A stretch of DNA of 64,000 bases from contig NJBH01000018.1 of the NCBI GenBank assembly GCA_005223125.1, positions 1 to 64,000 on the forward strand, written 5' to 3'. The notes below the pieces were generated by a model. The model did no database searches, was not told where the DNA came from, and saw only the letters and a program-made list of their open reading frames with translations. The position numbers were made by a program, and so were the translations under genes. Position 1 is the stretch's first letter; each line of letters opens with the position of its first letter. Origin of the DNA: Promethearchaeota archaeon Loki_b32 (GTDB taxonomy: Archaea; Asgardarchaeota; Lokiarchaeia; Sigyniarchaeales; SOKP01). Shown in pieces: positions 42,248 to 58,985 of the stretch.

Positions 42248-43636
42248 CTAATTTTTAACGAATTTAATAATTTCATCTTTTATTTCATAATTTGGTAAGA
42301 CAAGATTAGTGAATCCTTTTTCTTTTGCGAATTTTGGCATAGCATAGAGGATACTTGTTTGTTCTGATTCGGCAATTGTCTTTCCGCCTACTCTTTTAAT
42401 TGCTCCTAATCCTTCAACGCCATCGGAACCCATACCTGTTAAAAGTATTCCCATAGCTCGATTTCTATAGATCTTAGCTGCAGAAAAAAACAAAACATCT
42501 ATAGATGGCATACAAAAATTAACTGGAGTTCCTTTATAGATTTTAATTAATGGCTTTTTGTTTTCTATAGAAATTTCCGTATGCATATCTCCAGGTGCTA
42601 TATAAACATAACCAGATTGAAGATAAACTCCATTTTGTGCTACTTTTACTTTTATATCGCATTCTATATTTAAATTATCTGCAAATGCCTCAGTAAAATG
42701 AGAAGATAAGTGTTGAACAATTAAAATTGGGGCATTAAAACCTCTAGGAATTTCTTTTAATATTGTAGTAAGTGTTCTTGGACCTCCTACACTTGCACCC
42801 ATAACAATTATATTTGAAGTTATTGTAGCTCCCTTAACAGGGGTAAGATCAGGAATATAAGCAGGTTTTTTCTTTTTAATTTGGACAGGAGAAATTGCTT
42901 TTTGCAATGTGGTTTTATCTTTCCTCTTTTTAAGTGATTTCGAAAGATTTATTGATTTTGCAGGCACTTTTAGACTATTATCATCCTCTTCTTTGACAGA
43001 AACTGTGCTTGTTTTACTTGAAGACTCATTTACGACTTCTGGTTTAGTTTCTTCCTTGAGAATTGCTTTAACTTTCATTAATTCAAATGAATCTTTTTCT
43101 TGTTCATCCTCAATTTCTTGAATAGGTTGTAATCGATTAAGGTATTGACCAAAATCAAAAATTCTATCAACTATTTCTTGGCGTAGAGTTCTACTCTTTT
43201 TTAATACACTTTCTTCTTTCCTGAAAATTCTTTTAATTTGAGATTGTGAAGCCAATAATACCTTAGCTAGCAATTCTTCACGAAACATAGGTAAATCTTT
43301 TGCACCTATTCCTCCAGGTTTTATAATATAATCAAATGCCCCCATTAAGAGAGCCTGAATGGAGGAATCTAAATTTTTAGGGCTGATAGCTGAAAGTATA
43401 ACTGTAGGAGTTGGGTGTTCTTCCATAATCAATTTGAATGCGTCAAGTCCGTTCATTTTAGGCATTACTAAATCTAAAACCAAGACATCTGGGCTATATT
43501 TTTTAACATATTCAACAGCTTCCTTTCCATCCTTTGCAAAGTCGACAATGTTAACTAAATCATGCTCTTTAAGAATATCTGCTATGTTTTTTCGTAAATA
43601 AGCAGAATCATCGGCAATAACTACATCAATCGTCAA
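42248..43636 (-). CDS. cheB: Chemotaxis methylesterase CheB, second copy
   Basis: A 462-residue CheB: receiver domain at residues 1-125 (VIADDSAYLRK, VLDLVMPKMNG, Lys in IIKPGG), a long Lys/Ser-rich linker (about 150-270) and the esterase domain with ASVGGPRTL (Ser), VQHLSSHF (His) and TGMGSDGVEG (Asp). It removes methyl groups from receptor glutamates, or modifies glutamines, under control of CheA. The linker is about 40 residues longer than in the first CheB. It is the last gene of the cluster and starts at a TTG; its stop lies 30 bases from the convergent EF-2 gene. Confidence 0.93.
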   Translation of the reverse strand: MTIDVVIADDSAYLRKNIADILKEHDLVNIVDFAKDGKEAVEYVKKYSPDVLVLDLVMPKMNGLDAFKLIMEEHPTPTVILSAISPKNLDSSIQALLMGAFDYIIKPGGIGAKDLPMFREELLAKVLLASQSQIKRIFRKEESVLKKSRTLRQEIVDRIFDFGQYLNRLQPIQEIEDEQEKDSFELMKVKAILKEETKPEVVNESSSKTSTVSVKEEDDNSLKVPAKSINLSKSLKKRKDKTTLQKAISPVQIKKKKPAYIPDLTPVKGATITSNIIVMGASVGGPRTLTTILKEIPRGFNAPILIVQHLSSHFTEAFADNLNIECDIKVKVAQNGVYLQSGYVYIAPGDMHTEISIENKKPLIKIYKGTPVNFCMPSIDVLFFSAAKIYRNRAMGILLTGMGSDGVEGLGAIKRVGGKTIAESEQTSILYAMPKFAKEKGFTNLVLPNYEIKDEIIKFVKN

Positions 43637-43710
43637 ACAAAACTCCTATTTGTATTTAATTAATTATTCTTATAAATAGTAAAGTGAGGAAATTTATACG
43701 TTACTAAAAG

Positions 43711-44667
43711 CTAAAAAAGATTTGATATAAGAAAAGTAAACAATTCATCAATACCCTCTCCAGTAAATGCTGATGTCTCAAAAAAGGGTATATTGTATTG
43801 ATCTGCTAAATTTTGTGCTTTCATATTTATATCTTCAAGATTTTCAGCTAGATCTATTTTATTTCCCACAAGAATGTGAGGAATTGCTCTATTTCTTAAA
43901 GAGTGTTGTGATTCTTCGATCCAATCAGGGATTTTAGCTATAGTGTCTGATTGTGAGTAATCAAATAAAATTAGAACTGCATCTGAGTATTCGTAATAAA
44001 ATCTACGGATTTTAGCAAAACTTCTTGCACCACCTAAATCAAAAATATATAATTTTAAATTATAATCTTTTAAGATTTGTAGCTCTTTCTCTAGAATTGC
44101 AATTCCAATCGTGGGTTTGTAAACCCCATTTTCTTTAAAATTGTCCCCACAATACATTCTAGCTAATTTTGTTTTTCCCACCGTTTCAGATCCCACAAGT
44201 GTTATCTTTCTTACATTATTTTTATTATATTCCTCAGCAGGTAGAATTAGTTCCCCTTCATTATCCAATTTTGGAATTTGTAATGAGGTGTCATGATTAC
44301 TTAAAATTGATGAGATCTTTTCTGCTACTATATATGAATAGGGAATGAATTGATCAATATTGTTAGAATGATCTGCTACTAAAACGAAAATTGCGGGAAT
44401 ATTATTTCCTAATTCCATATAAAATAATTGAAAATCATTAGTATCAAAAGTACCACTTCCGAATGATGTTTCTGCATACCTCTTGATCTTATTTATGGTT
44501 TGATCTAAGATTGCCATAATTGCTCCAATTAATTCTTCATCAAATCCTTTTACTGAAGATCGAGCTATTATTAAACCATCTAAATCAACTACTAAAGCAG
44601 CTAGGAGATTTTGCGCTTCTTTTAGTAATTTATCTAATAATTCTTCTAACTTGGATACTTTTGACAT
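43711..44667 (-). CDS. Roadblock-Ras-like GTPase fusion
   Basis: 318 residues: a Roadblock/LC7 domain (about 5-115, LLDKLLKEAQNLLAALVVDL then GLIIARSSVKGF) fused to a small GTPase (about 148-318) with GSETVGKTKL (G1), KPTIGI (G2), DLGGARSF (G3), NKID (G4) and ETSA (G5). The Gln that follows DxxG in Ras and Arf is Ala here, which would weaken intrinsic GTP hydrolysis. Roadblock proteins act as GAPs for the Myxococcus GTPase MglA, so the two halves may regulate one another. It lies between cheC and cheB, which suggests that it is the output switch of the chemosensory pathway. Confidence 0.88.
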   Translation of the reverse strand: MSKVSKLEELLDKLLKEAQNLLAALVVDLDGLIIARSSVKGFDEELIGAIMAILDQTINKIKRYAETSFGSGTFDTNDFQLFYMELGNNIPAIFVLVADHSNNIDQFIPYSYIVAEKISSILSNHDTSLQIPKLDNEGELILPAEEYNKNNVRKITLVGSETVGKTKLARMYCGDNFKENGVYKPTIGIAILEKELQILKDYNLKLYIFDLGGARSFAKIRRFYYEYSDAVLILFDYSQSDTIAKIPDWIEESQHSLRNRAIPHILVGNKIDLAENLEDINMKAQNLADQYNIPFFETSAFTGEGIDELFTFLISNLF

Positions 44668-44712
44668 ATATTATTCTTCTTTTTGTGCGGTTTTTAATTT
44701 AAATTATCTCAT

Positions 44713-45366
44713 TTAAAGATTGAGATCATATTTTAAGTTTAAAATATTAAATAGTCTTTTTAAGATATTAATAGAGGGGATAAGGCAAATAGTCCCTTCT
44801 AAATTTATATCTGAAACTGTTAATTTTGTATTTATTACTATCATTAAGTCCGATATTTGAGAATATTTTGCAATTATCCCTTCTAATATGGCATTTACTG
44901 TATCAATTGCAATTTTAGGAACATTTGGGACCAGTTTAGTGGATAATAAATCTGCTAAAGCATTTGTATAATGTCCTGATAAAATACTTCCTATTTCGGC
45001 TATGATGCTACAAGAAAAATCATCTAAATCATCAATAGATTTTAAATCTTCAATGGAAATTTTATTAAAGTCAGATAATATATTAATTAGATTAAGAATT
45101 GACTCTTTTGTAAAAATCTGAATAATTGCTAAATCTGAATTAAAGGGTATATCAGAAAAGATTCCTACCATATCAACATAAGGGTTGACAAAAAGATCTG
45201 GAACTTTCCAAAAGGAAATGATGTCTGCAGATGTTAATGAAACTTCAATTTTACCACTAATTAATTTTGAGAGTGCTGTGATAGCATGGCCAGACCCTAT
45301 ATTTCCAAGTTCTTTTAACATATCTAATTGATCTTGTGTTAATTTTATATTAACCGAATCATTCAT
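44713..45366 (-). CDS. cheC: CheC phosphatase
   Basis: 217 residues with the twin CheC active-site helices: LKELGNIGSGHAITAL (about residue 15) has the required Glu and Asn, and the second, IAEIGSILSGHYTNAL (about 112), keeps the Glu but has Ser where the Asn is expected, so one of the two sites is probably weakened. CheC removes phosphate from CheY-P and binds CheD. It sits directly downstream of cheD (53 bases). Confidence 0.9.
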   Translation of the reverse strand: MNDSVNIKLTQDQLDMLKELGNIGSGHAITALSKLISGKIEVSLTSADIISFWKVPDLFVNPYVDMVGIFSDIPFNSDLAIIQIFTKESILNLINILSDFNKISIEDLKSIDDLDDFSCSIIAEIGSILSGHYTNALADLLSTKLVPNVPKIAIDTVNAILEGIIAKYSQISDLMIVINTKLTVSDINLEGTICLIPSINILKRLFNILNLKYDLNL

Positions 45367-45419
45367 GGTCCTTCTCCTCTTTTTTGATTCCTCTTTAAAT
45401 TTTTATATTAGTATAATTT

Positions 45420-45965
45420 TTAACTAGTTATTTTTTTAAAATTTGATTCTCTTGTTGATTTAACATAAACGGAGAAATCTTTAGTATCAAATATAACAGC
45501 TCTCCCCTCAGATCCTCCTGTATTCTCTCCTATAATTTTGATTTCTAATTTTTCTAATTCTTTTTTGATTGCTTCAGTGTTATTAATACCCATAAAATTC
45601 TCATCTAAATCAAAAATTTTTGAGCCTCCAACAATAATAGCCTTTATATTCTTCCTCATAGCTCCATGATTTATTAATTCTTGAATTAATAATTTTGCAG
45701 AGAGATCAGCATATTTGTGGGGAAAATTTATTGTTTTGTTTTGACGAGATTTAGGAAGTAATATATGAGACATTCCACTTACATTATTTTTGTTATCAAA
45801 AAGAATTAGAGCAATACAAGAACCTAATCCATAGATTGATATTTTTGGATCAACATTGTTAATCCTTTTTTTACAATTTATTATAGCATAATGCCCCATG
45901 GGTAAGAAAATTTCACCATTTTTATCTGATTTTTCAATACATCCATGGGGTTTTATCTTTTTCAC
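45420..45965 (-). CDS. cheD: Chemoreceptor glutamine deamidase CheD
   Basis: 181 residues with the CheD catalytic set: Cys in YGLGSCIALILFD (about residue 49), His in VSGMSHILLP (about 65) and Thr in GENTGGSEGRAV (about 148). CheD deamidates receptor glutamines and stimulates CheC. It has an extra ~25 residues at the N-terminus. It is flanked by cheB and cheC. Confidence 0.92.
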   Translation of the reverse strand: MKKIKPHGCIEKSDKNGEIFLPMGHYAIINCKKRINNVDPKISIYGLGSCIALILFDNKNNVSGMSHILLPKSRQNKTINFPHKYADLSAKLLIQELINHGAMRKNIKAIIVGGSKIFDLDENFMGINNTEAIKKELEKLEIKIIGENTGGSEGRAVIFDTKDFSVYVKSTRESNFKKITS

Positions 45966-45989
45966 CTTTAAATTTAAAAAGTCTAATTA

Positions 45990-47129
45990 TTAATTTGATA
46001 TGTTAATTTCCTTTTTTCTTGCGTATTTTATCATGTGATCTTTAACTTCATAATTTGGGACTACTATATTCGCAGCTCCTCTTTTTACAGCTGCTTTAGG
46101 CATACCATAAACAACACATGTTTGCTCTGATTCTGCAATTGTTTTACCTCCCTCTTTTTTAATCGCTTCTAAGCCGGCAGCACCATCTTCTCCTAAACCA
46201 GTCAGTAAGATTCCTAGTATTTGATTTTTATATACTTCTGCTGCGGATAAAAATAATACATCAACCGAAGGCATACAAAAATTTACAGGTTCTCCTTTAA
46301 AGGTTTTTATACATGGTTTATTATTTCTTTGTATAACCTTCATATGTTTTCCTCCTGGACTAAGATAAGCAATTCCAGGAAGGATTTCTTCCCCATTAAC
46401 GGGAATTTTAATTTCGATATCGCAAACTTGATTTAAAGATTTTGAAAGTTCTTTCATAAAAAATGGATCTAAATGTTGAACGATTAATATTGGAATTGAA
46501 AAACCTTTCGGAATTTCTTTTAATATTGATTTTAAAGTTCTGGGACCACCAGTACTTGTTCCAATAACGATAACATTGGATTTTATTTTACTTTTTTTAA
46601 TAACTCTTTCTTTTTGAACCTTATCAATCTTTTGTTTTAGTCTTGTGCTTGTCTGATAATGTTCGATATTAGAATCGAATGAAGGAGGTTTCTTAACTGA
46701 TTTCTTAATTAATAAATTTCGCTTTTCATAAGTTTTTTTTATTTTTCCAGCATATAGGGTACTAGAAATTAATTTTTCTTTTAACTTCGGGAATTCTTCT
46801 TCCCACAATCCTTTTGGTTTTATAATAAAATCGAAAGCTCCTAAAAGCAAAGCTTGGATAGAATCATCTAATGTTTCTGGATTTTTAGCTGAAAATATTA
46901 TCGTAGGTATTGGATAGTGTTCTGAAAGGAATTTGAATACCGTTATCCCATCGACTTCGGGCATCATTAAATCTAAAATTAATACATCAGGATTAAATGT
47001 TTCAACTTTTTCAATTGCTTCTCTTCCATTCCTGGCAAGTTCTACACTTGCAATTTCATTGTTTGACAATAACATATCAGAGATTACTTTTCTTTGAAAG
47101 CTTGAATCTTCCGCCACAAGAACTTTAAT
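45990..47129 (-). CDS. cheB: Chemotaxis methylesterase CheB, first copy
   Basis: A CheB of about 379 residues: receiver (AEDSSFQRK, ILDLMMPEVDG, FIIKPKG) and esterase domain (TSTGGPRTL, VQHLDPFF, TGLGEDGAAG). The codon ATT at 47129 starts the expected strand IKVLVAED, and no ATG, GTG or TTG lies between the cheR stop and that strand; the next canonical start, a GTG at 47117, would remove IKVL. The ATT overlaps the cheR TAA by one base (ATTAA). The start is therefore likely AUU, or AUA six bases further up. The rest is standard. Confidence 0.85.
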   Translation of the reverse strand: MKVLVAEDSSFQRKVISDMLLSNNEIASVELARNGREAIEKVETFNPDVLILDLMMPEVDGITVFKFLSEHYPIPTIIFSAKNPETLDDSIQALLLGAFDFIIKPKGLWEEEFPKLKEKLISSTLYAGKIKKTYEKRNLLIKKSVKKPPSFDSNIEHYQTSTRLKQKIDKVQKERVIKKSKIKSNVIVIGTSTGGPRTLKSILKEIPKGFSIPILIVQHLDPFFMKELSKSLNQVCDIEIKIPVNGEEILPGIAYLSPGGKHMKVIQRNNKPCIKTFKGEPVNFCMPSVDVLFLSAAEVYKNQILGILLTGLGEDGAAGLEAIKKEGGKTIAESEQTCVVYGMPKAAVKRGAANIVVPNYEVKDHMIKYARKKEINISN

Positions 47130-48156
47130 TGATATTTAAGTCCCCCTCTTTTATATATATACGATTATATGAATCTATCAGCTTTAAGTCTCCCTGAAAG
47201 TTATTTAAAGCTTCAGTTTTCCCTAAGATTAACAGACCACCTGGATTCAACCTGTTTCTAAGAATATTTGAAAATTCTTTACGTGTTCTTCTACTAAAGT
47301 AAATTAAAAGATATCGACAAAAGATTATATCATACGTTAAAGAAGTTTGATGCCCTCTCGTCACATCCTCTTCAATAAATTCAACCTGATTTTTAATTTG
47401 CTTATTTATTGAATAAGTATATCCAAAATTTTCATTTTCTTTATTAAAATATTTATTTTCATAAAATTTTGAAACACTTTTTGTGGAATCTTCATTATAT
47501 ATCCCTTTTTTTGCTCTATTTATAGCTTCTCTATCTATATCTGAAGCAATGATTCTAAATTGCGGAAATTTAGGAATTTGATTTTTGAGATTATCTAAAA
47601 TCATTGCAATCGAATAAGGTTCTTCACCATTAGCACATGGACATGACCATATATTAATATGTCTTTCAGATTCTGAAGGATTCCATATTTTTCTGTATAA
47701 TGAAGTTTGGTATAAGATTTGATTAATTGAATGTTTTCTAAATTTTTTTGGATTCTTATATCTATTTTGAGAATTCATAGAATCTTTTTTCGTTCTTACT
47801 CTATATTGTCTTTCTGGATTAGGAGTTAAATCACTTATAATATCTCCATTTTTTAGGTATAAAGCAGATAAAAATATCTTTTCAAATTGCCTAAAGACTT
47901 CCCAATTTCTAAAAAAAACAGAATAATTAATATTAAAACAATCAAAAAATTTATTGGTTTCTGAAGAGTTTTCTAACAGATAATTATAGTAAGATTCAAG
48001 AGTACCGCAATTAACACGAATCATTCTTGATTTGATTCTTTTTTCAATAAATTTTTTTCGATAATAATCCAAATTCAATCCAGTAGAATTCATTAAAAAG
48101 TGAATTAGAGGCTCATAATAATCCGAATCAAATCTAATATCATCAATTCGTATCAC
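47125..48156 (-). CDS. cheR: Chemoreceptor methyltransferase CheR
   Basis: 343 residues with the CheR N-terminal helical domain (about 1-75; NINYSVFFRNWEVFRQF), the SAM site INIWSCPCANGEEPYS (about 166) and DIIFCRYLLIYFSRRTRK (about 276). Between about 104 and 165 is a polar insertion (DSMNSQNRYKNPKKFRKHS) that most CheR proteins lack. It methylates receptor glutamates. It follows the gelsolin protein after 11 bases. Confidence 0.92.
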   Translation of the reverse strand: MIRIDDIRFDSDYYEPLIHFLMNSTGLNLDYYRKKFIEKRIKSRMIRVNCGTLESYYNYLLENSSETNKFFDCFNINYSVFFRNWEVFRQFEKIFLSALYLKNGDIISDLTPNPERQYRVRTKKDSMNSQNRYKNPKKFRKHSINQILYQTSLYRKIWNPSESERHINIWSCPCANGEEPYSIAMILDNLKNQIPKFPQFRIIASDIDREAINRAKKGIYNEDSTKSVSKFYENKYFNKENENFGYTYSINKQIKNQVEFIEEDVTRGHQTSLTYDIIFCRYLLIYFSRRTRKEFSNILRNRLNPGGLLILGKTEALNNFQGDLKLIDSYNRIYIKEGDLNIN

Positions 48157-48167
48157 TTCTAAACACT

Positions 48168-48713
48168 TTATTTTCCTAATAGTTTTTCAATTTCAGCAAA
48201 ACGTCGCTGCATATGATCCATTGAATACTTTATATGCATTTGTATTTCTTTAATCTCAGATAAAATCTTTCTAATATGAGATTTCGTAGATTTTGATAAC
48301 GCCAAATCACCTTCTGATATTTCTGATTCTATAATTTGGCTTGGCGTAAATTGCAACCCATAAGTTTGTGAAGATTCAGTTTTATATCTGGATTGTCCGG
48401 GATAATTCAGATTAACTCTATTTTCTTTAATTTCATTAAAAATCGGATGAAAATCTTCTGGTTCAATACCTTGTTTAATGACTTCATATTTGAAGTTATA
48501 AAATTTCTTTTTAGTTTTGAGTTTTCCCGCGAAGTTTGCTGCCATGTAGCGGTGAAATAAACGAGAATGACTACCTGCCCATATCCAAATAAGTTTTAAT
48601 TTCTTATCTACAATTAAATACACACCATTAGGATCAAATATTTTCTCAGGTCTAAGTTTAAGTGTTTCACCTTGCACTTCGTAAATATAGTCATAATAAC
48701 CGCTTTTTAACAT
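48168..48713 (-). CDS. Gelsolin-like domain protein in the chemotaxis cluster
   Basis: 181 residues. Residues about 20-95 fit a gelsolin repeat: the strand GVYLIVDKKLKLIWIWAGSH, a helix (RYMAANFAGKLKTKKKF) and the end YEVIKQGIEPEDFHPIF with the usual Glu-x-x-x-F. The last ~45 residues form a coiled coil (RKILSEIKEIQMHIKYSMDH). Gelsolin-family proteins bind actin, and Asgard archaea have actin and gelsolins. It lies between the CheW-CheC fusion and cheR. A cytoskeletal output for the chemosensory pathway is an inference. Confidence 0.7.
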   Translation of the reverse strand: MLKSGYYDYIYEVQGETLKLRPEKIFDPNGVYLIVDKKLKLIWIWAGSHSRLFHRYMAANFAGKLKTKKKFYNFKYEVIKQGIEPEDFHPIFNEIKENRVNLNYPGQSRYKTESSQTYGLQFTPSQIIESEISEGDLALSKSTKSHIRKILSEIKEIQMHIKYSMDHMQRRFAEIEKLLGK

Positions 48714-48835
48714 GGGTTTTTTAACCTATTGATTTTTGGTGTTTTATAAAGGTTTATATTTATTTTGGAGATTCTTGCTTTATTTTTGAAATATTTAAAA
48801 AAAATATTAAATATGGATTACTTTTAGTAGGTTTC

Positions 48836-50821
48836 TTATGAATAAAACTTTAAAAGTGCATCCAATAATTCATGTAAAGTTTCTAAGCTTGGAATAAATA
48901 AAAATGTACCAGTAATTTTTATATCTGTAATAAGAACACTTGTAGTGATTACCAGCGATAGCTTCTTAAGTAATCCAATTTCTTCTTTTAGGATCTTAAA
49001 CAACTGAGATCCCGTATCAACGGACATGTCTGGAGGCTCTGTCATTAGACGTAACCCTAATAGATCGCCTATTGCACTCACGTAATGACTACCTAAAATA
49101 TGACCCAGTTCAGAGATGGCACTGCGATAAAGTTCTGGAAAATCAGAAGACTTGTTAATTTTCTTTCTCATATCGATTTGTTTCTTGTCTCTATCATCTA
49201 CTATTATTGACGTTATATCTACTGCATCATTTATGTTAAATATTGTTAGGACAGTAGCTCGCGTTTTACCAACAACATTACTCCATGCGACCAAAAGTTT
49301 TTCATTCTTTTTACTAATGTTATTGGCATATTCATCTAATTCAACCATCTCTACTGTTGGAACATTTATATCTACTCTTTTATTGATCATTTGAGCTAAT
49401 GCATTTGCAGCATTTCCTGCACCAATATTACCGACTTCTTGTAAAGCATCTCTTTGAACTTCTGTAAGCTGTATTTTATCAATATCTAACATCTCTGGTA
49501 ACTCCTTAGGCTTCCTCGTCCCTATAGCTATTTCATGCTCTATTCCTAATTTATTAAAAAATGATTTTAAAGTTTGAAGATCTGGTATAAAGAAGAACAT
49601 ACCTTTTAGTTTCAAATCAGCTACTGAGATAGACGTTTTAATTACTATAAAGAATTCAGCAACCGATTTTAGTTCTTTAGAGAGAAATTCTCCAATTTCC
49701 CCAGCTTGACTCATTGTAAATTCAGGAACGTCAATCATTAATTTTGTACCTAATAAATCAGCCAATGCCGAAGCATAATGTCCTGCCATGATATTTCCCA
49801 TTTCAACAATAGTGGAAACTGCATAATCATCAAGATCCTTCTTAGATTTAACCTTATTTGGGTCTATTTTTGATTTATTTCCTGCTAAATCTGCAATCAT
49901 CTTCATTAATGGTTTCATTTCAAATATATTTAAGATAGTTGCTTGAGATGGTTTTTCTATATGGCAAAAGATCCCACACACTTTCTCTTTAGGTCCACCA
50001 AATTGTGCAGGTAATTCTTCTAGAGGTATAATTCCTACATCTGTAAGAGTAACATCAATTTTCTTTTTGACCAATCGAGATAAGGCTGTGACTGCATTTC
50101 CAGTACCAATATTTCCAATTTCTTTAAGCATATCTTGCTGTTCATCTGATAATTCAACCTCCCTTTGTTCCACTTCTTCTGGAATAGCCGTTAACTTCAT
50201 TGAAGGTTGGATTTTCTGAGGGATTATAACCGTTGAATCAACATCTGCTTTAGTTTTTGGTTTAGCTTTTGATTTAGGTTTTACTTTAGGTCGTTCAAGA
50301 ACTTTTGGTTTTAGATCTTCTTTTTTCTCTACTCTTGAGCCTAAAGATTTGATATAGGGTTTAATTAAAGCTTCCAAATCTAATAGTATTAGTGTTTCAT
50401 CCTGAAAAATACCAGTTAATTTTATTAATCTGAAATCAATATTGGTTTTTACAATAGTACCCTGTCTTTTGAAGATTGAGATTGGAAAATCTTTAACTCC
50501 TATTACAGCATCTACTAATAAAGCAATTTTTAAATCCTCATACTCTAAAACTAAAATTCGTGAAGTGCTAGTTAATCTATAATCAACATCATTACCATGA
50601 ATATTGTGTCTTAAAGAGATGATAGAATAAATCTCTCCTCTTATATTAATAATGCCAACTATAGATTTTTCTGCTAACGGAACTGGAATGATTTTTTCTC
50701 CAGGAACATAAATTTCCTTTACATATTCCACTTCAATGAGATGTCTTTCATTAAGAACTTGAATAATTACAACATTTACTGTTTCTCCAAAATCAATATT
50801 ATCAGATTCAGTTTCTAACAT
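48836..50821 (-). CDS. CheW-CheC-CheC fusion protein
   Basis: 661 residues: a CheW domain (about 10-160; EKSIVGIINIRGEIYSII), a Lys/Pro-rich linker (about 165-225), then two CheC domains. CheC 1 has EIGNIGTGNAVTAL and EMGNIMAGHYASAL, both with the Glu/Asn pair. CheC 2 has EVGNIGAGNAANAL and ELGHILGSHYVSAI, with His instead of Asn in the second site. CheW links receptors to CheA, so the fusion would tether CheY phosphatase activity to the array. It is distinct from the free CheC at 44713. Confidence 0.9.
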   Translation of the reverse strand: MLETESDNIDFGETVNVVIIQVLNERHLIEVEYVKEIYVPGEKIIPVPLAEKSIVGIINIRGEIYSIISLRHNIHGNDVDYRLTSTSRILVLEYEDLKIALLVDAVIGVKDFPISIFKRQGTIVKTNIDFRLIKLTGIFQDETLILLDLEALIKPYIKSLGSRVEKKEDLKPKVLERPKVKPKSKAKPKTKADVDSTVIIPQKIQPSMKLTAIPEEVEQREVELSDEQQDMLKEIGNIGTGNAVTALSRLVKKKIDVTLTDVGIIPLEELPAQFGGPKEKVCGIFCHIEKPSQATILNIFEMKPLMKMIADLAGNKSKIDPNKVKSKKDLDDYAVSTIVEMGNIMAGHYASALADLLGTKLMIDVPEFTMSQAGEIGEFLSKELKSVAEFFIVIKTSISVADLKLKGMFFFIPDLQTLKSFFNKLGIEHEIAIGTRKPKELPEMLDIDKIQLTEVQRDALQEVGNIGAGNAANALAQMINKRVDINVPTVEMVELDEYANNISKKNEKLLVAWSNVVGKTRATVLTIFNINDAVDITSIIVDDRDKKQIDMRKKINKSSDFPELYRSAISELGHILGSHYVSAIGDLLGLRLMTEPPDMSVDTGSQLFKILKEEIGLLKKLSLVITTSVLITDIKITGTFLFIPSLETLHELLDALLKFYS

Positions 50822-50866
50822 TTTAATTTCCTCTTGTTTTTTCTCCTATTCCTTTTAAATAAATTA

Positions 50867-51715
50867 TTATTTTAACATAATTCCTTTCCAAATTAGTTCT
50901 ACTTCGGGTTCTTCCTCATTAACTTCTGTAAAAAAATCAATTTGTCTATAAACTGAAATTTGACCGCCTTTTGTATGTTTGAATGCATAATTTAACATAT
51001 CATCCGTCCTAGTAAAATTAAAACCCGCAAGTTTTAACTCTGAATCATTTACAATTATAAGATCTTCATTGTTAAAAGGACGATTTTCTTCAATCCATTC
51101 GACCCATATTTCAGGTGATAGTTCCTTGCTTATAATTTTGATTGGTTCGTCAAATGGTATATTACGGAATGATTTACCAGTTGCAAAAATAATTCTGTCA
51201 GGGATTAAGTTTTCTTTCTTAGCAAATTCATTCAATTTATTAAATGCCTTCTTATATTTACTCAATTCCAAAACATCATAGCATAGACATAAAATCACAT
51301 CTTTATCTTCCGTTTCAACAATAAAATCTATCACTTGATCTGGATTGGAATCTTGGTTAATTTTTATCGATTTTAATTTTAGATTTAACATGTATTTAAG
51401 GTATTGATAAAAACGCCATTTTAAACTTAATTTATCGGATTTTTCTCTACTTATGAAAATCTGAAACATATCTTTTAATTGTTTTATAGTTAATTTCGAT
51501 AAATCAGCTTTTTTTCCACTGTCATTCCCAATTACAACATATCCTTGATTTGACTTTACTTTTGAATTTTTCTTTTGCTTGGATGGTTCTGCTGCAACAT
51601 CTTGTAAAAACTTTTTCAGTTCGCTCACAGTGAAATGTGGTAAAACCTGCTCGATGAGATATAATAAATATTCCTTTGATTTATCATCCATCATTTCATA
51701 ATACTGTAGTTTCAT
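50867..51715 (-). CDS. Unknown protein within the chemotaxis cluster
   Basis: 282 residues with an N-terminal helical part (HFTVSELKKFLQDV, TIKQLKDMFQIFI) and a C-terminal alpha/beta part (VIDFIVETEDKDVILCLCY, IPDRIIFATGKSFRNI, LIIVNDSELKLAGF). The second half recalls a restriction-endonuclease-like fold without an obvious active site, but this is weak. A GGAGG site precedes the ATG. Conserved gene order would make it a cluster-specific adaptor. No CheF or other known Che accessory domain was recognised. Confidence 0.5.
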   Translation of the reverse strand: MKLQYYEMMDDKSKEYLLYLIEQVLPHFTVSELKKFLQDVAAEPSKQKKNSKVKSNQGYVVIGNDSGKKADLSKLTIKQLKDMFQIFISREKSDKLSLKWRFYQYLKYMLNLKLKSIKINQDSNPDQVIDFIVETEDKDVILCLCYDVLELSKYKKAFNKLNEFAKKENLIPDRIIFATGKSFRNIPFDEPIKIISKELSPEIWVEWIEENRPFNNEDLIIVNDSELKLAGFNFTRTDDMLNYAFKHTKGGQISVYRQIDFFTEVNEEEPEVELIWKGIMLK

Positions 51716-51756
51716 TTTATTTCCTCCTTATTTTTTTTCTTAATTTTTTTAATTAA

Positions 51757-53784
51757 TTATCCGACGAAATATGATTCTAACTCTGAATATTTAGCTTCTT
51801 TTCCACTTATGCTTTTTAGATAATACATAATCTCTCTCTCTTGGTAGGGTAAAAGAGCATTAATTGTGAAAGAAATGTTTTGATCCCCATTCTTCTTTGA
51901 TTTACTAAGTTTATGTTCTATATTTGAGGAGATTAGTTCAAAAGACTCTGGAATAGTATCTGTAATATTCACGTCATTAAGTTTTATACTTGAACCATTT
52001 TTTGCTACAATGTAAATAGCAAATTCATTAGCACTCCTCCCTGGATATATTTGTTTTCCGACCATCACTTTCCGTCTTTTATGAGAAATGTTTATTGAAG
52101 ATTTCTCCTGATCAGAGAGATTATTCGTTATCATATAAAATTCTTTAATACCAGAATTTTTAAATCTTGAATAAAATGCAGAGACATTAAGTGGAAAATC
52201 ATAAGCTTTTTTATAATCGGGTGTCATAGCTTTGAGGGGATATTTCAATTCTAAGAAATCATCCACCTCAATCACTGATTTTAAAGCGCCATTTTTTAAA
52301 TTAATGTTAAGTTCGATAGTATGCTCATGAGTTGGATCTTCATCATCAGGCTTTAAATTCAATTCAATTTCTCCTATGTTTAGTTTACCAGATGATCTAG
52401 ACAATGTATAATCTGAAATATTTCTTGATGGTAAGAAATCTTCTGGTACCCTTTCTACAATTCGAAGACCGTTGATTGGAATAGTACCTTGATTATTTAT
52501 AATAATTTTAGAATTTAATACCGTTTCTTCAAATGATTTAATTTCTTCTTCTGATAATTTCTTTTTTAGAACAATATTAACTACTATAAAGAAACTATCA
52601 TCAAATCTCGAAGTAATCATTGAATTCTTTTCTGTTCTGTAATCAACTGAATATTCTACTTTTCTTGAAAATGTTGGTTCTTTTTCATCAACACAATCAA
52701 AAGATTCTGTCTTATATTTACCACGAGGATTAATTATTGCACTTCCTGAAGTTTTAAAATCTAAATCTAGGATTTTTGTAGTTTTAGATTTATCATATAC
52801 TAAAACTGAATTTAATTTCAATTTGAAATCACTATGATTCTCGAATATAAGTGAACATTGCCAATTATTTGGAGCGTGATTCTTCTCTGTTTTCTTAATA
52901 GCGTGCATTGCATGTGAATATGCTGAGAAATGGTTGATCTTTACTCCGGAAATTACTTTATTTGATAAGTTAAATGTTATTTCAATATTTCCAGTTTTAA
53001 TATTTTCTTTCTTTTTAGGGAATAATTTTGCTAGAATAGTAATTTCTACTTTTTCCCCAGGATTTAGATTATTTAAAGAGCAGTCTATAGAATTTCTAGT
53101 AACTTTAAATTCCTTACCTTTATTACTGTTAAATTCTAAATCGTAAAAATTTTCTGTAAATGATTTTTTAAACTTAATGTTTTCAAGTATAGAAGTTGAA
53201 ATATTTACAATATTAATTGAAAATTTCACCTTATTTTCTTTTCCTAATAATAGTAAATAATTCTTTTTATTACCTACTTTCAAGGTTTCATTTTCAATTA
53301 GATCCGACTCTTTATTATCATTTTTAAAGATTTTGATATCTTCACTAAGATTTTCTATATTTTCACTCACTTCTATTAAATCAGGTAAATCATCAGAATT
53401 GACAATTTCATATTTCAATACTTTATTTGAATTAGGCTCAAAAATCCCTAAATTTAGATTATTATCTGTCTTTTGATTATTAAATTGTGAGCCTGAAAAT
53501 TGTAAATTTGCATCCCAAATTCTGTCTTTAACAGAGTTATTAAAAATTGAAATATTTCCATTACCTGTGACTGCTTTTCTTGCTCCATCATTTTGATAAT
53601 GAAATTCCATAAACTCTTCATTTAATATCAATACTTCTGACATTGAACCTGTATAACTTGATTCAATTTTCTTTTCTCTGTGACTTTTTTGTATTAATTT
53701 ACCACCTTCCCTTATAGGGATACCAAGAAAATTTGGGCTAATTTTTGTCTTTAATTCGTCATGATCAATTTTTTTAAAACCCAT
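51757..53784 (-). CDS. Large cytosolic beta-repeat protein
   Basis: 675 residues with no signal peptide or membrane segment. It seems to be a chain of four or five Ig-like or DUF11-like beta-sandwich units of about 110-140 residues; recurring phrases are NLNPGEKVEITILAKLFP, VNIVLKKKLSEEE and NDVNITDTIPESFELISS, followed by LLPYQEREIMYYLKS. Such repeats are common in surface proteins, so a soluble one inside a chemotaxis operon is odd. It may be a scaffold like adaptin or arrestin domains. A GGAGG site precedes the ATG. Confidence 0.6.
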   Translation of the reverse strand: MGFKKIDHDELKTKISPNFLGIPIREGGKLIQKSHREKKIESSYTGSMSEVLILNEEFMEFHYQNDGARKAVTGNGNISIFNNSVKDRIWDANLQFSGSQFNNQKTDNNLNLGIFEPNSNKVLKYEIVNSDDLPDLIEVSENIENLSEDIKIFKNDNKESDLIENETLKVGNKKNYLLLLGKENKVKFSINIVNISTSILENIKFKKSFTENFYDLEFNSNKGKEFKVTRNSIDCSLNNLNPGEKVEITILAKLFPKKKENIKTGNIEITFNLSNKVISGVKINHFSAYSHAMHAIKKTEKNHAPNNWQCSLIFENHSDFKLKLNSVLVYDKSKTTKILDLDFKTSGSAIINPRGKYKTESFDCVDEKEPTFSRKVEYSVDYRTEKNSMITSRFDDSFFIVVNIVLKKKLSEEEIKSFEETVLNSKIIINNQGTIPINGLRIVERVPEDFLPSRNISDYTLSRSSGKLNIGEIELNLKPDDEDPTHEHTIELNINLKNGALKSVIEVDDFLELKYPLKAMTPDYKKAYDFPLNVSAFYSRFKNSGIKEFYMITNNLSDQEKSSINISHKRRKVMVGKQIYPGRSANEFAIYIVAKNGSSIKLNDVNITDTIPESFELISSNIEHKLSKSKKNGDQNISFTINALLPYQEREIMYYLKSISGKEAKYSELESYFVG

Positions 53785-53840
53785 CTTATTTTTCCTCCAA
53801 GTTTTTCTTCATTTGATTCATTTATTATTTGTAAAAAAAA

Positions 53841-55913
53841 TTATTTTAACTTAGAAATTATATTTTCATTTAATTTATTTGAAATTATACTCAAAACATC
53901 GATTATTAGACATATTCCTCCTTCACCTGTAATTGAAGAGCCTAAAATATCTCGGGAATCAGAATAATTAGACTTGAAAGGTTTCACAACTACATCCAAT
54001 TGTTGAAGTTGTTTATCTGCGATAAATACTACCGAATTTTCCTCATCTCTTTGACACCATATAGCAATTTTTTTATAGGAATTCGTCGTGGATTTGTCTA
54101 CCATATTCAAATGTTCATCTAAATGAATTACTGGTAAAGATTTTGATTTAATTTTATAGTATTGTTCCCCTTCTATGTATTCAACCTGGTTTGGATTGTA
54201 AAAGTATATCTGTTTAATATTTTCAGTTGGAATCGCAAATAGGTCATCAGCAATCTGGATTAGTTGAGCTCTTAATATTGCTCTAGTAAATGGTACTTCT
54301 ATAGTAAATTTTGTACCGATATTTTTTTGTGATTGAATATTAAAATCACCACCTAATTCCTTTATTTTTTCTGCCATTATAGCTAAACCCATCCCTCTGC
54401 CTGAAAGAATATCCGCATCTGAAAGTGTAGAGAACCCAGGCATAAGAATAAATTGATGTAAATCCTCATCACTTAATTGTTTAGCATCCTCTGAGTTATA
54501 ATATCTTCTACTTACAACTTTTTCTCTTATTTTATCATAATTAATACCCATACCATCATCTTGCACCTCAATGAAAATTGATCCTGATCTTCGATATGTT
54601 CTTAATCTTAATGTTCCAAGTTCATTTTTCCCTTTTTTAACTCGTTCCCTTGGTGATTCGATTCCATGATAAATTGCATTCCGAATTAATTGGACTAATG
54701 GAGAATTGATTTCCTCTAAGATTTTTCTATCAATTTCAACATTAGTTCCTTCAAGAATTAGTCTCAATTTTTTACCAGTTTCATTTGCTACATCACGAAC
54801 TAGTCGTTTATATTTTCTAAAAGTAGATTCAACCCTAACTAATTTTAATTTGAAAAGTATTTCTTGAATATCTAGAAAAGGTTTATCCATTTTATCAATT
54901 AACCTTACTAATGTTCTGTCTTGTTTCTTCTTTAAAAGTTGATTGATGTGATTCTTCATTATTATTAGTTCTCCGAAATAGTTCATTAATTCCTCTAAAT
55001 GCTCGATGTTAACTTTAACACTCGTTATTTTAATATTGTCTTCTGAAAAGTCGCCTACAATTTCAGAAACTCTCTCAATTTCTTCAATGTCTTCTTCTTC
55101 ATCATAATCGTCTAAAAGTAACTCGCTACTCATAGATTCTGATTTTTCTGTTTCCCATTTTTCTTTAAGATCTGTAATAGTTTTTTTAAATTCTCCTGAA
55201 TTTAGTGGAGTAATAACTTTATTTTCTATTTCCAAAATCTCATCTAAAACCTGAGATATTTTATCTTTCTTATTTTGTGTGATATAATATATTTCAAACT
55301 CATTTCTAAGAGTAGCTTTTTCTAAATCTTCAGGCGCTGGATTGGTACAACAGATTTTACCATTTTCATTTAACGCTCTAAATATAATAAATAATCTTAC
55401 TTTTTTGAAAACACAGGTATCTTCAAGGCGAACATAAATCTTAAATGATTTATTTTGTTTTTGATTAAGAAGTTTAGTAATTTCTTCTTGGTTTAAAGAC
55501 TGAATAAAGGTGATATCATACACAGTCTCAAAACTCTCAAAACTATTTTTTATGTCTTCAACAAAATTTCCATCAATATCACTTAAATCTCCTTTTTTCA
55601 CTCGGTTTAAGAAATTTCTTAGCACATCAAGACTTTCAAATAACATACCAATGAAATTTTGTCTTTTGCTTTTAGATACTTTCTTCTCCTTAGCATTTTC
55701 CAAAAGAGATTCAAAATGATGGCAGAACTTAGACAGATTGTCAAAACCGGCCATTGCAGTTAATCCTTTCAATGTATGAAATGTGAAGAAAAGTTCTTTT
55801 ATTGGTTTAGAATTCTCTGGATTTTCTTCAAAAGATAGTATTTCTTCCTCTGTTTTCTGAATCAGATCTTCGGATTCACTTATAAAAAGTTTTATATCGT
55901 CTTTAGATGACAC
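53841..55913 (-). CDS. cheA: Chemotaxis histidine kinase CheA
   Basis: 690 residues: an HPt domain with the phosphorylated His in FFTFHTLKGLTAMAGF (about residue 48), a P2-like segment (about 165-230), dimerisation helices (LEELMNYFGELIIMKNHINQ, about 305), the kinase core with LVQLIRNAIYHGIES (N box), QDDGMGINYDKI (G1) and GRGMGLAIM (G2), and the P5 CheW-like domain (FAIPTENIKQIYF). All catalytic motifs are present. It phosphorylates CheY and CheB. It sits between cheY and the beta-repeat protein. Confidence 0.95.
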   Translation of the reverse strand: MSSKDDIKLFISESEDLIQKTEEEILSFEENPENSKPIKELFFTFHTLKGLTAMAGFDNLSKFCHHFESLLENAKEKKVSKSKRQNFIGMLFESLDVLRNFLNRVKKGDLSDIDGNFVEDIKNSFESFETVYDITFIQSLNQEEITKLLNQKQNKSFKIYVRLEDTCVFKKVRLFIIFRALNENGKICCTNPAPEDLEKATLRNEFEIYYITQNKKDKISQVLDEILEIENKVITPLNSGEFKKTITDLKEKWETEKSESMSSELLLDDYDEEEDIEEIERVSEIVGDFSEDNIKITSVKVNIEHLEELMNYFGELIIMKNHINQLLKKKQDRTLVRLIDKMDKPFLDIQEILFKLKLVRVESTFRKYKRLVRDVANETGKKLRLILEGTNVEIDRKILEEINSPLVQLIRNAIYHGIESPRERVKKGKNELGTLRLRTYRRSGSIFIEVQDDGMGINYDKIREKVVSRRYYNSEDAKQLSDEDLHQFILMPGFSTLSDADILSGRGMGLAIMAEKIKELGGDFNIQSQKNIGTKFTIEVPFTRAILRAQLIQIADDLFAIPTENIKQIYFYNPNQVEYIEGEQYYKIKSKSLPVIHLDEHLNMVDKSTTNSYKKIAIWCQRDEENSVVFIADKQLQQLDVVVKPFKSNYSDSRDILGSSITGEGGICLIIDVLSIISNKLNENIISKLK

Positions 55914-55942
55914 ATAATCACCTTATATCCTCATTATTTTAA

Positions 55943-56341
55943 TTAATTCTTCTCTGCTGTTTTAATTTTAAGTATACGGTCCATAACCTCTACAATTTGT
56001 TCAGTTTTGAATGGTTTTTGAATGAAATCTTTTGCCCCTTTTTTCGCTGCCTCAAGAACTAATGCCTCTTGACCTAGCGCAGAAACTACAACTATCAATG
56101 CTTTTGAGTTTATTTTTAGAATCTCCTCTGTTGCTTCAATGCCGCCCTTTTCTGGCATTACTAAATCCATAGTAACTAAATCAGGATTTAATTTTTTATA
56201 TAAGGAGATAGCCTCAACTCCATTTGAAGCTTCACCAATAACCTCAATTTGTTCGATTTTATTTATTATGTTTTTTAACATATTTCGTGTAAATTGGGCA
56301 TCATCAACAATCAAAACCTTTTTCTTTTCATTCTTTGTCAT
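55943..56341 (-). CDS. cheY: Chemotaxis response regulator CheY
   Basis: 132 residues in a single receiver domain: VDDAQFTRNML, TMDLVMPEKGG with the phosphorylated Asp, VVSALGQEA with the Thr/Ser switch (Ser here) and the Lys in QKPF. The aromatic switch residue common in CheY is not clear. In archaea CheY binds CheF or the archaellum, neither of which is in the window, so its target is open. Confidence 0.93.
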   Translation of the reverse strand: MTKNEKKKVLIVDDAQFTRNMLKNIINKIEQIEVIGEASNGVEAISLYKKLNPDLVTMDLVMPEKGGIEATEEILKINSKALIVVVSALGQEALVLEAAKKGAKDFIQKPFKTEQIVEVMDRILKIKTAEKN

Positions 56342-56361
56342 ATTATCAACTCCTATTTATT

Positions 56362-56892
56362 TTATGTTAATGATGATAAATCTTGTTGGATTCTAAATTT
56401 ATCAACGTCACTAAAAATCTTGCTTAAATCAAGCATTACCCTTGGTCGTTCCTCAAAGTTAATAATTCCGTTAATAAATTCCATAGCAACACTCGTTTGA
56501 AAGATGGGACTCAATCCTACGATCTGAGTTGGGTCTACATGGTCTATACTAAGTATGGAATCGGTATAGAACCCAATTAAATCATTATCCATTTTAAGAA
56601 TTATGATAAAATTTTTCGAAGTACTTGAATCTTCTTCAAATGTGGAGTATTTTGAATGATATAGAACATACTGATCTAGATTCAATTTTTTCTTCAAGTT
56701 AATTACGTGAATAATTTCTCCTCGGTAATTATAGATGCCATCGATGTAGCCTAAGCTTTTGGGTAACTTTCTTATTAGACCTGCTTGAATTATTTCCTTT
56801 ACTTGATACAAATCAATGCAGAACTCTTCCCATCCAATCTGGAAAGATAGGATAGAAACTTGATCTTGTCCTTCATGTGCATTTATACTCAT
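56362..56892 (-). CDS. cheW: Chemotaxis coupling protein CheW
   Basis: 176 residues covering a CheW fold (LSFQIGWEEFCIDLYQVKEII, IDGIYNYRGEIIHVINLKKKL and INFEERPRVMLDLSKIF). A loop of about 20 residues near residue 80 (KYSTFEEDSSTSKNF) is longer than usual. It connects receptors to CheA. It is separate from the CheW domain of the fusion protein, so the cluster has two. Confidence 0.93.
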   Translation of the reverse strand: MSINAHEGQDQVSILSFQIGWEEFCIDLYQVKEIIQAGLIRKLPKSLGYIDGIYNYRGEIIHVINLKKKLNLDQYVLYHSKYSTFEEDSSTSKNFIIILKMDNDLIGFYTDSILSIDHVDPTQIVGLSPIFQTSVAMEFINGIINFEERPRVMLDLSKIFSDVDKFRIQQDLSSLT

Positions 56893-56912
56893 TTTTTTTA
56901 CCTACTTTTTCT

Positions 56913-57734
56913 TTAAATTATAAAATATTGGTTAATTTTACTTTCAAATTCGTTAAATGGAGTAACATCTCCATTAAATTCTTTTATATAATTGCGGAAA
57001 TCGAAAAGGAATTCGTCCGCGATAAGATACATATACCTTTGAAGTAATTGGTTCATATTTTCTACAAGAAAGGCAAAAATAACATTACTTTTTGATATAA
57101 CATAAAATTGTTGGTTCCCGAAGTTAATCTCTTTAAGTTTTGCTCCAGTTTCCTCTCCAATAATTGTATTTGAGAAGGATAATAAAGCTGAGATAAATCC
57201 CCCAATGTGAACTTCGTGATCAGCAATATTAGATCGTTTTTTATTAATTTTTGATATAAATGGACTTCCTGTAGAACCAATTATAAATATTGCAATAACT
57301 CCATCAGTTTTTGGAATCTCAATCTCTGATTCAAAAAATTTGGTTATTTCTGATATTGGAACGTTTGAAAGAATTTTTTTATTAATCTTTTTGGATAAAA
57401 AGTATAATTTTGGGAAATTCACCGGAACAGTCGGTTCTTTTTCTTCCATGTATATGAATACTGATATATTTTTCTCTCCATTTTTAAAATATTGAATATG
57501 AATCGTAAAAGCATCCAATGGAATAATTGAATTCCCTTGTCTTTTACTTATTATTTCTTTTTTATATAATTCGAAGATATTCTGAATGAGTGAAATTCCA
57601 ATACCATTTTGAAATAGAACATTAAGCTTCCCCCCAGAGTCAAGTTCTGAGATATTTAACAAACCATAACCTAGTATATATAATTTTTCAGATGCGTTAT
57701 TTGAGTTTTGAGCTGCGTTATTCATGGCTATCAT
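56913..57734 (-). CDS. Longin/Roadblock-like protein at the head of the chemotaxis cluster
   Basis: About 273 residues from the ATG at 57734; a TTG at 57776 would add 14. Two modules are visible: residues about 20-120 and about 145-260, each with the strand-helix-strand pattern of Longin or Roadblock platforms (GGFISALLSFSNTIIGEETG then FYVISKSNVIFAFLVEN). No exact family is certain. In Asgards such proteins work with small GTPases, fitting the Roadblock-GTPase at the other end. It is the first gene of the cluster; an A/T-rich TATA-like stretch lies near 57955-57965. Confidence 0.55.
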   Translation of the reverse strand: MIAMNNAAQNSNNASEKLYILGYGLLNISELDSGGKLNVLFQNGIGISLIQNIFELYKKEIISKRQGNSIIPLDAFTIHIQYFKNGEKNISVFIYMEEKEPTVPVNFPKLYFLSKKINKKILSNVPISEITKFFESEIEIPKTDGVIAIFIIGSTGSPFISKINKKRSNIADHEVHIGGFISALLSFSNTIIGEETGAKLKEINFGNQQFYVISKSNVIFAFLVENMNQLLQRYMYLIADEFLFDFRNYIKEFNGDVTPFNEFESKINQYFII

Positions 57735-57776: not shown

Positions 57777-58340
57777 TAAAAATCATAATATCTGGGTGTT
57801 CCTGGCTTTTTCTCTGAGTATTCTTCATTATCCAGTAGTTAGAAATTTTTTACACCTTTTATCAAAATCATAAAATTTTTATGTAAAATTTTATCGAGTT
57901 TTTGCTTTTTTTGTAAAATTCATTATATTGAACTAAAAAACTTATATTAGAAAATATATATAAATTTAATGTTATAGAAAATTGTTATCCGTATACAAAC
58001 ACATCTTCTTTTAAACATTTGAAATTCTTAAAATTTAAGCTACCAACTTCAATTAAAACGACTTTATTTTAATATAAGGTCAAATTTGTAAATAGTATTT
58101 AGAGTTTAAGTTTGACAAAAATTTAAATAGCTCCAAAAAATTACATAGGTAAGTAGAATTTTGAATGTCAAATTATATTCAATTACTGGAAATAACATAC
58201 AAAGTATGGATTTGAACACACAAATTTAATATTATTCTGAGTTATATTTAATAATGTCTAAATAAAAATAGTAAAGAATATTATCAAAATTGAAATCAGG
58301 ATTAAACCTAAATGTTTTAAAATTTTGGAAAGAGATTATC
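57777..58340. other. Gene-free divergent region upstream of the chemotaxis cluster
   Basis: About 560 A/T-rich bases separate the chemotaxis cluster from the zinc-ribbon/Roadblock gene. No frame with a ribosome site, tRNA or strong inverted repeat was found. A TATATATA stretch at about 57954-57962 may be the cluster promoter. A TTG at 58290 could be an alternative start for the gene that follows. Confidence 0.5.
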
Positions 58341-58985
58341 ATGAATGCTCAAACTGGAATAAACCAAGGAAACGAAGAATTTTTAAAAGAGATTATAATT
58401 AGATGTCCACAATGCTCAACAAATAAAAAATTGAAGATTCCTAAAAAAGTTATTGATCAAAGTAAGCAATTAACTACAATATCTATTCCTTCAAATTTGT
58501 GCTGTGAACATAGTTTTCAAGCTTTTGTTGACAAAAATTTTATTGTTAGAGGTTATCAAAAAGTAGATTTTGAGTTTTCTCATATGGAATTTTATGAAAG
58601 CAGTGAGGGTTCTTATGATACGGAAGGTTTTACATCAAAACCAATTTTTCAACAAATAATCCAATTATTAAGAGATTGTATTGAAGATAAGGATATTCTA
58701 GGGTCGGGGATGTTTACAGTTGAAGGAAAAGTGTTGTATTCTTCACTGCCTCAAACAACTTTGTTTAATACAATTCGTGAATTTGAAGTCAGAAGCGAAC
58801 AACATTTGATTAGCTTAAAGAAAATGTATCTAGAGTTAGATAACAGTGAGAAGTTTATCTCAACTATAATTTCCTTTAATGGATTGAAATTCAATTTAGT
58901 GTTAATGTTTTCTTTTCGCACAAAATTTGGAATGGGCAATCTCCATATGCGCGATTTACTAAAAAAAATAGAGAAAATAAACTAA
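58341..58985 (+). CDS. Zinc-ribbon plus Roadblock-like protein
   Basis: About 214 residues from the ATG at 58341. The N-terminal half has a zinc-binding pattern (RCPQCSTNKKLKIP, then NLCCEHSFQAFVDK, with RGYQKVDFEF), found in archaeal proteins that carry a Roadblock-like module behind it; the C-terminal half (FQQIIQLLRDCIEDKD...MFTVEGKVLYSSLP) fits such a module. The protein is a probable partner of Ras-like GTPases and stands divergently next to the chemotaxis cluster. Confidence 0.6.
   Translation: MNAQTGINQGNEEFLKEIIIRCPQCSTNKKLKIPKKVIDQSKQLTTISIPSNLCCEHSFQAFVDKNFIVRGYQKVDFEFSHMEFYESSEGSYDTEGFTSKPIFQQIIQLLRDCIEDKDILGSGMFTVEGKVLYSSLPQTTLFNTIREFEVRSEQHLISLKKMYLELDNSEKFISTIISFNGLKFNLVLMFSFRTKFGMGNLHMRDLLKKIEKIN

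Follow-up and report, generated by a model that had tools for sequence, protein, structure and literature searches.

What does an apparently complete chemosensory system control in an archaeon whose genome yields neither an archaellum nor the platform protein of type IV pili? The question is raised by 14 minus-strand genes at positions 42248–57734 of the window, by which we mean the whole 64,000-nucleotide stretch analysed here (positions 1 to 64,000 of contig NJBH01000018.1, assembly GCA_005223125.1) from Promethearchaeota archaeon Loki_b32. Pfam profiles identify, above cut-off, CheA with a P2 domain, CheY, CheW, two CheB, CheR, CheC, CheD and a CheW-CheC-CheC fusion; the remaining members are a fusion of Roadblock and Rab-like GTPase domains (RoblRas), a gelsolin-domain protein, and proteins that we call g14, g9 and g10. 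Known targets of chemosensory systems are flagella, archaella, pili, gliding and a few cellular programmes, and we know of no such system acting on the actin cytoskeleton. Asgard archaea possess eukaryote-like actin, and to our knowledge nothing has been established about its upstream control. We put at about even odds (roughly 50%) the reading in which a Che array acts, through phosphorylated CheY (CheY-P), on a GTPase, longin and gelsolin module, which in turn would bias actin or membrane dynamics locally. We favour it because the gene order is conserved, g9 and gelsolin occur only in genomes with CheW, the known Che outputs are absent and actin-family genes are present, and further because RoblRas is Rab-like with all G motifs, one genus keeps gelsolin and GTPase without CheR, CheB, CheC and CheD, a g14 paralogue lies beside a receptor gene, and no other protein of the cluster is as conserved as CheY.

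Conservation of the cluster and absence of the usual outputs

The intergenic gaps measure 7–122 bp, so the 14 genes likely form one transcription unit. We compared the locus with 77 relatives, the named ones nearly all Candidatus Lokiarchaeota, and with 228 Asgard genomes, counting clusters by reading the locus annotations by eye (G, C and L numbers denote our genomes, contigs and loci). CheW was detected in 23 of the 77 relatives and 46 of the 228 Asgard genomes. Across Lokiarchaeal genera and families, down to 40–50% identity, the genes keep the order g14-CheW-CheY-CheA-g10-g9-CheW/CheC/CheC-gelsolin, after which come CheR, CheB, CheD, CheC, GTPase and CheB in varying combination; the arrangement is therefore not a product of chance. 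A single copy of g9 is present in each of 21 of the 228 Asgard genomes, all of them CheW-positive; in G049, the 22nd genome to have a substantial cluster, the contig breaks off within g10. A strong gelsolin orthologue occurs in 18 of the 228, again always with CheW. Fisher tests of co-occurrence with CheW among 83 Lokiarchaeal genomes (p 9e-19 for g9, 1e-14 for gelsolin) ignore shared ancestry and serve as a guide only. Within the clusters g10 directly follows CheA or CheD in 22 genomes, and g9 and g10 are among the most tightly linked and most faithful partners. In 18 genomes the g14 gene immediately precedes CheW, with orphan copies in two genomes without CheW (G001, G010), and RoblRas occurs in 10 clusters, about half, which makes it frequent rather than universal. 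In genus g3 (G028, G039, G043) CheR, CheB, CheC and CheD are gone from the cluster and the gelsolin-GTPase pair is kept. In G028 the Roadblock-GTPase is followed by a PAS-kinase-receiver hybrid and a Rag/Gtr-type GTPase (L048:13667-16842), and L052 of G039 is alike by sequence likeness; the che clusters of these two genomes thus hold two small GTPases.

An initial annotation, made from the window alone, had looked to gene-order conservation in Asgard genomes. Such conservation extends across the Lokiarchaeia, but an Asgard-wide module had to be rejected: clusters of other Asgard families are without g9, g10, a gelsolin orthologue or a close GTPase, with weak g14-like open reading frames nearby, and the arrangement is, to judge by these genomes, Lokiarchaeal. 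The annotation had set against its own proposal the case of archaellum genes and CheF in the same genome, with the non-Che genes missing from other clusters; we found neither archaellum nor CheF, and the non-Che genes recur in Lokiarchaeal clusters. Its GTPase is a member here and in about half of the clusters.

The absence of CheF and archaellum genes, which the annotation had noted for the cluster, extends to the entire Loki_b32 genome, where profile search of the contigs recovered no CheF, no archaellin and no T2SSF platform protein (PF00482), which is common to archaella and type IV pili. CheF was found in 0 of 77 genomes, with positive controls, archaellin in none of the 77 relatives, and the one archaellin above cut-off among the 228 Asgard genomes lies outside the Lokiarchaeia. 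Of 15 Lokiarchaeal genomes with the cluster that were searched for PF00482, 14 gave no match, Loki_b32 and the single-contig G004 among them, and G065 gave a borderline one; the family was found in 13 of 14 controls, as well as in three Che-positive genomes of other Asgard families. An archaellum as output was rejected on the three absences in Loki_b32, a conclusion that is well supported; in the reading that we favour, the output of the Che system is neither an archaellum nor a type IV pilus. Four actin-family genes are present in the genome.

Decay of the cluster was seen at several stages. An internal deletion fuses CheA and CheB fragments in G003 (L041), a CheW fragment alone remains in G015 (L045), g14 stands beside a CheB fragment in G001 (L226), and CheR is cut to an N-terminal stub in G002 and G018 (L036, L040); together these stages point to repeated loss within one genus. 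A CheR stub is also seen, with a weaker match, in G012. In G004 the cluster is split (L042, L043) into parts about 1.1 Mb apart, the break falling between g9 and the CheW-CheC-CheC gene; its CheW is truncated and a cluster-type g14 is not present. Genes for methyl-accepting chemotaxis proteins (MCPs) also persist in Lokiarchaea without any CheW found (G006, G008, G010, G016, G044, G045). Such fragments, stubs, a split cluster and orphan receptors would suit the remnant of a system that was linked to an archaellum in an ancestor and is now decaying or turned to gene regulation. We regard this as highly improbable, considering that reading frames and catalytic motifs are intact in Loki_b32 and most relatives, that CheY is ~75% identical between genera, and that new partners are retained alongside the Che genes.

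Che proteins and their partners

All Che and non-Che genes named by the initial annotation lie on the minus strand where it had placed them. Its list was correct for Che, GTPase, gelsolin and the longin/Roadblock-like gene, and omitted g9, g10 and a conserved neighbour at 58290–58985; the fusion it described as CheW-CheC has a second CheC part; and the lack of a receptor, although true of this cluster, does not hold for the genome, where four MCP genes with a canonical hairpin lie elsewhere, nor for several relatives, which carry an MCP gene at the cluster head.

From the upstream end, the Che genes encode CheW (56362–56892; Pfam 5.4e-23), CheY (55943–56341; 1.1e-26) and the histidine kinase CheA (53841–55913; Hpt, P2, H-kinase_dim, HATPase_c and CheW domains, with the H, N, G1 and G2 boxes kept), followed by the CheW-CheC-CheC fusion (48836–50821; CheW 2.2e-19, CheC 7.2e-42 in four stretches), the methyltransferase CheR (47125–48156; CheR 1.1e-44, CheR_N 1.6e-9), one CheB (copy 2, 45990–47117; CheB_methylest 1.5e-57, motifs kept), the deamidase CheD (45420–45965; 8.9e-23, GxGSC and SH motifs kept), the phosphatase CheC (44713–45366; 1.3e-13, one of two ExxN sites intact) and the other CheB (copy 1, 42248–43636; receiver and methylesterase, CheB_methylest 1e-55, Response_reg 1.6e-21, catalytic Ser/Asp motifs kept). 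The catalytic motifs of CheA, CheY, CheB, CheD and the CheC modules are conserved across orthologues, and the adaptation set of CheR, CheB, CheC and CheD is present with its catalytic motifs, that of CheR judged by eye. In the fusion, three of the four ExxN phosphatase sites are kept in 15 of 15 orthologues; a literature search returned no report of a CheW-CheC fusion. In conservation CheY stands well above all other cluster proteins, with a median identity of 94.5% within the genus and 74.7% between genera. By its motifs, then, the Lokiarchaeal Che system appears complete and functional.

RoblRas (43711–44667) matches Pfam Ras at 7e-32 and Robl_LC7 at 7e-5, the latter slightly below cut-off. 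The best PDB matches of its GTPase-domain profile are Rab-23 and Rab-33B, a Thorarchaeota Rab also ranking high; no MglA stands among the 60 matches listed, and the G1–G5 residues are invariant across nine orthologues. The gelsolin-domain protein (48168–48713) consists of a single domain and a conserved C-terminal helix, read from the sequence. From the single sequence its Pfam match falls below cut-off (E 0.007), but the identification is firm with the orthologue profile, whose best PDB matches are Asgard gelsolins (7c2f 3.7e-7, 7whf 1.9e-5, 7c2h 2e-4). At other loci, also in genomes without CheW, lie gelsolins of a second subfamily, which are similar in length and match the cluster protein at E 1e-14 to 1e-20 (G023:C321, G031:C85, G039:C14, G012:C28, G021:C231, G034:C1); no Che, g14 or GTPase neighbours were found there with the profiles used. 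The longin/Roadblock-like g14 (56913–57734) has no Pfam match on its own; some of its orthologues reach Fuz_longin_1, the longin of Mon1/Fuz, at best with 5.3e-5 and 23.9 bits against a cut-off of 26.1, and a PDB Roadblock weakly (E 0.14). A g14 paralogue adjoins an MCP gene in Loki_b32 and also in G013 and G018, a second sign that the longin-like g14 family belongs to chemosensory signalling. In Loki_b32 (contig C29, L154:5628-8584) an MCP, a partial kinase and receiver protein and the paralogue stand in a row as a second small chemosensory locus.

The g9 protein (50867–51715) belongs to no Pfam family and on sequence constitutes a new one. Its AlphaFold2 model has a mean predicted local distance difference test (pLDDT) score of 82.6; a nuclease identity was not accepted, the nuclease-like fold matches being weak with template modelling (TM) scores of ~0.2. 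Tandem immunoglobulin (Ig)-like g10 (51757–53784) has adaptin-like features and matches to Pfam DUF11 in 18 of 19 orthologues; it is longer in some relatives (about 1000–1200 residues), and two members match coiled-coil-type families. In Foldseek its model (pLDDT 81) resembles integrin alpha legs, which rank higher, and the mu-homology domain of adaptor proteins (AP), with TM 0.57–0.64 on target and better target coverage than the integrin legs. PF00928 is matched in 1 of 19 orthologues, at 1.1e-5 and below cut-off. An identity as an adaptin mu subunit was not accepted, since hhalign to an unverified sequence of human mu2 is negative and the matched region is also DUF11. Adaptin-like Ig proteins occur in archaeal loci of the endosomal sorting complexes required for transport (PMC10936438).

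These identities bear on two other readings. Membrane traffic or secretion rather than actin might be controlled, gelsolin being secondary, as the Rab-like GTPase, the sub-threshold Mon1/Fuz longin match of the g14 orthologues, the fit of g10 to the AP mu-homology domain and the Rag/Gtr GTPase of G028 would allow. However, the g10 match also fits generic tandem Ig domains, with integrin legs ranking higher and the mu2 alignment negative, and gelsolin is kept in part of the clusters where the GTPase is absent; we consider this reading unlikely. On the other reading there is no actin link: the gelsolin, longin, Ig-like and g9 proteins would serve as scaffolds for the array or as membrane anchors, and CheY would drive an unrecognised motility or adhesion. 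The divergent clusters of G049, G050 and G066 have neither gelsolin nor a close GTPase, yet g10 adjoins CheA or CheD there too, with g9 alongside wherever the contig extends far enough, so that both look like core components, and the CheW-CheC-CheC fusion indicates a lineage that remodels the array itself. Yet all three folds, those of gelsolin, the Rab-like GTPase and the longin-like protein, are eukaryote-type parts of cytoskeleton or traffic, and it seems improbable that one operon should have gathered them by chance; we hold this explanation to be rather doubtful.

Beyond the cluster, the divergent neighbour g15 (58290–58985, plus strand) is a Zn-ribbon protein with a C-terminus that, judging from the sequence, is possibly Roadblock-like; its orthologues occupy the same place, or stand beside a g14 paralogue, in several Lokiarchaeal genomes, and a PDB profile search with it gave nothing useful. 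A PAS-PAS histidine kinase is encoded nearby at 60027–61538 of the window (plus strand).

A possible route from CheY to actin or membranes

In the reading that we favour, MCP receptors encoded elsewhere in the genome would signal via CheW to CheA and be adjusted by CheR, CheB and CheD, with CheY-P as the messenger. The CheC modules would remove the phosphate of CheY-P, some of them tethered to the array through the CheW domain of the fusion. Up to CheY we infer these steps from established Che biochemistry and the intact motifs. Beyond CheY-P, RoblRas, g14, the gelsolin-domain protein, Ig-like g10 and g9 would make up the output module. The site of GTPase activity would most likely be set, via the Roadblock and longin proteins, either by CheY-P or by where the array lies; in response to the GTPase the gelsolin domain would then alter Lokiactin locally, g10 and g9 serving as a scaffold, and the outcome could be biased growth of protrusions or biased membrane dynamics. 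The narrower proposal that the CheA-CheY array directly controls the Rab-like GTPase and gelsolin to steer the actin cytoskeleton, which would give an archaeon chemotaxis or steered protrusions based on actin, we put forward only tentatively.

Several points weigh against this reading. The initial annotation had suggested steering of actin-based or membrane processes rather than of an archaellum, and its positive half draws on gene association, namely gelsolin, the Rab-like GTPase, the longin-like and adaptin-like parts and the four actin-family genes. Gelsolin folds do not necessarily bind actin, and the longin match of g14 and the adaptin match of g10 lie below curated cut-offs. The GTPase is missing from the clusters of G002, G012 and G031, and that of G066 retains g10-g9 without gelsolin, g14 and a close GTPase; these parts are therefore not indispensable for Che signalling. 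Finally, Candidatus Lokiarchaeum ossiferum (L. ossiferum) has eight gelsolin-like proteins (PMC9834061), and gelsolins are thus not special to Che. If the reading nonetheless proves correct, the conserved operon would supply candidate proteins for actin control, some of them from new families, and the cluster may be a prokaryotic sensor wired to the cell skeleton. With a Lokiarchaeon that carries Che genes in culture, the question is directly testable.

Comparison with known systems

Che genes in Lokiarchaeia have been known since 2022, when L. ossiferum was described with 15 MCPs, cheA/B/C/D/R/W/Y and putative chemoreceptor arrays, and Che genes were counted in 27 of 97 Asgard metagenome-assembled genomes (Rodrigues-Oliveira 2022, PMC9834061). 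The passages of that paper on Che genes give neither the gene neighbourhood nor a link to gelsolin or GTPase. The linkage to a gelsolin, GTPase and longin module appears to be new, as the literature searched, largely without subscription journals and bioRxiv, holds no description of the operon that we could find. Asgard Roadblock-GTPase architecture has been described, and GTPases of MK-D1 are generally not in operons with their regulators (PMC10933270), whereas the Loki_b32 fusion lies within a conserved operon. The cluster gelsolin shares its domain with the Asgard gelsolins 7c2f, 7whf, 7c2h and 7whg, its best profile matches, but differs in having one domain only, in a conserved C-terminal helix of its own and in its place within a che operon.

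Euryarchaeal chemotaxis, which works through CheF and the archaellum, has CheA, CheW, CheY, CheB, CheR, CheC, CheD and MCPs in common with Loki_b32. The latter is without CheF, archaellin and platform protein, and adds gelsolin, GTPase, the longin-like protein, g9, g10 and the CheW-CheC-CheC fusion. A parallel in logic is the Frz pathway with MglA/MglB of Myxococcus, in which a chemosensory pathway likewise comes together with a Ras-like GTPase and a Roadblock regulator, there to control movement other than swimming (PMC10329633, PMC7332107). The Lokiarchaeal GTPase differs in being Rab-like, with no MglA among the matches listed, and fused to Roadblock, and in place of a type IV pilus platform there are gelsolin and actin; with these differences, the Lokiarchaeal system appears to resemble Frz-MglAB in its logic.

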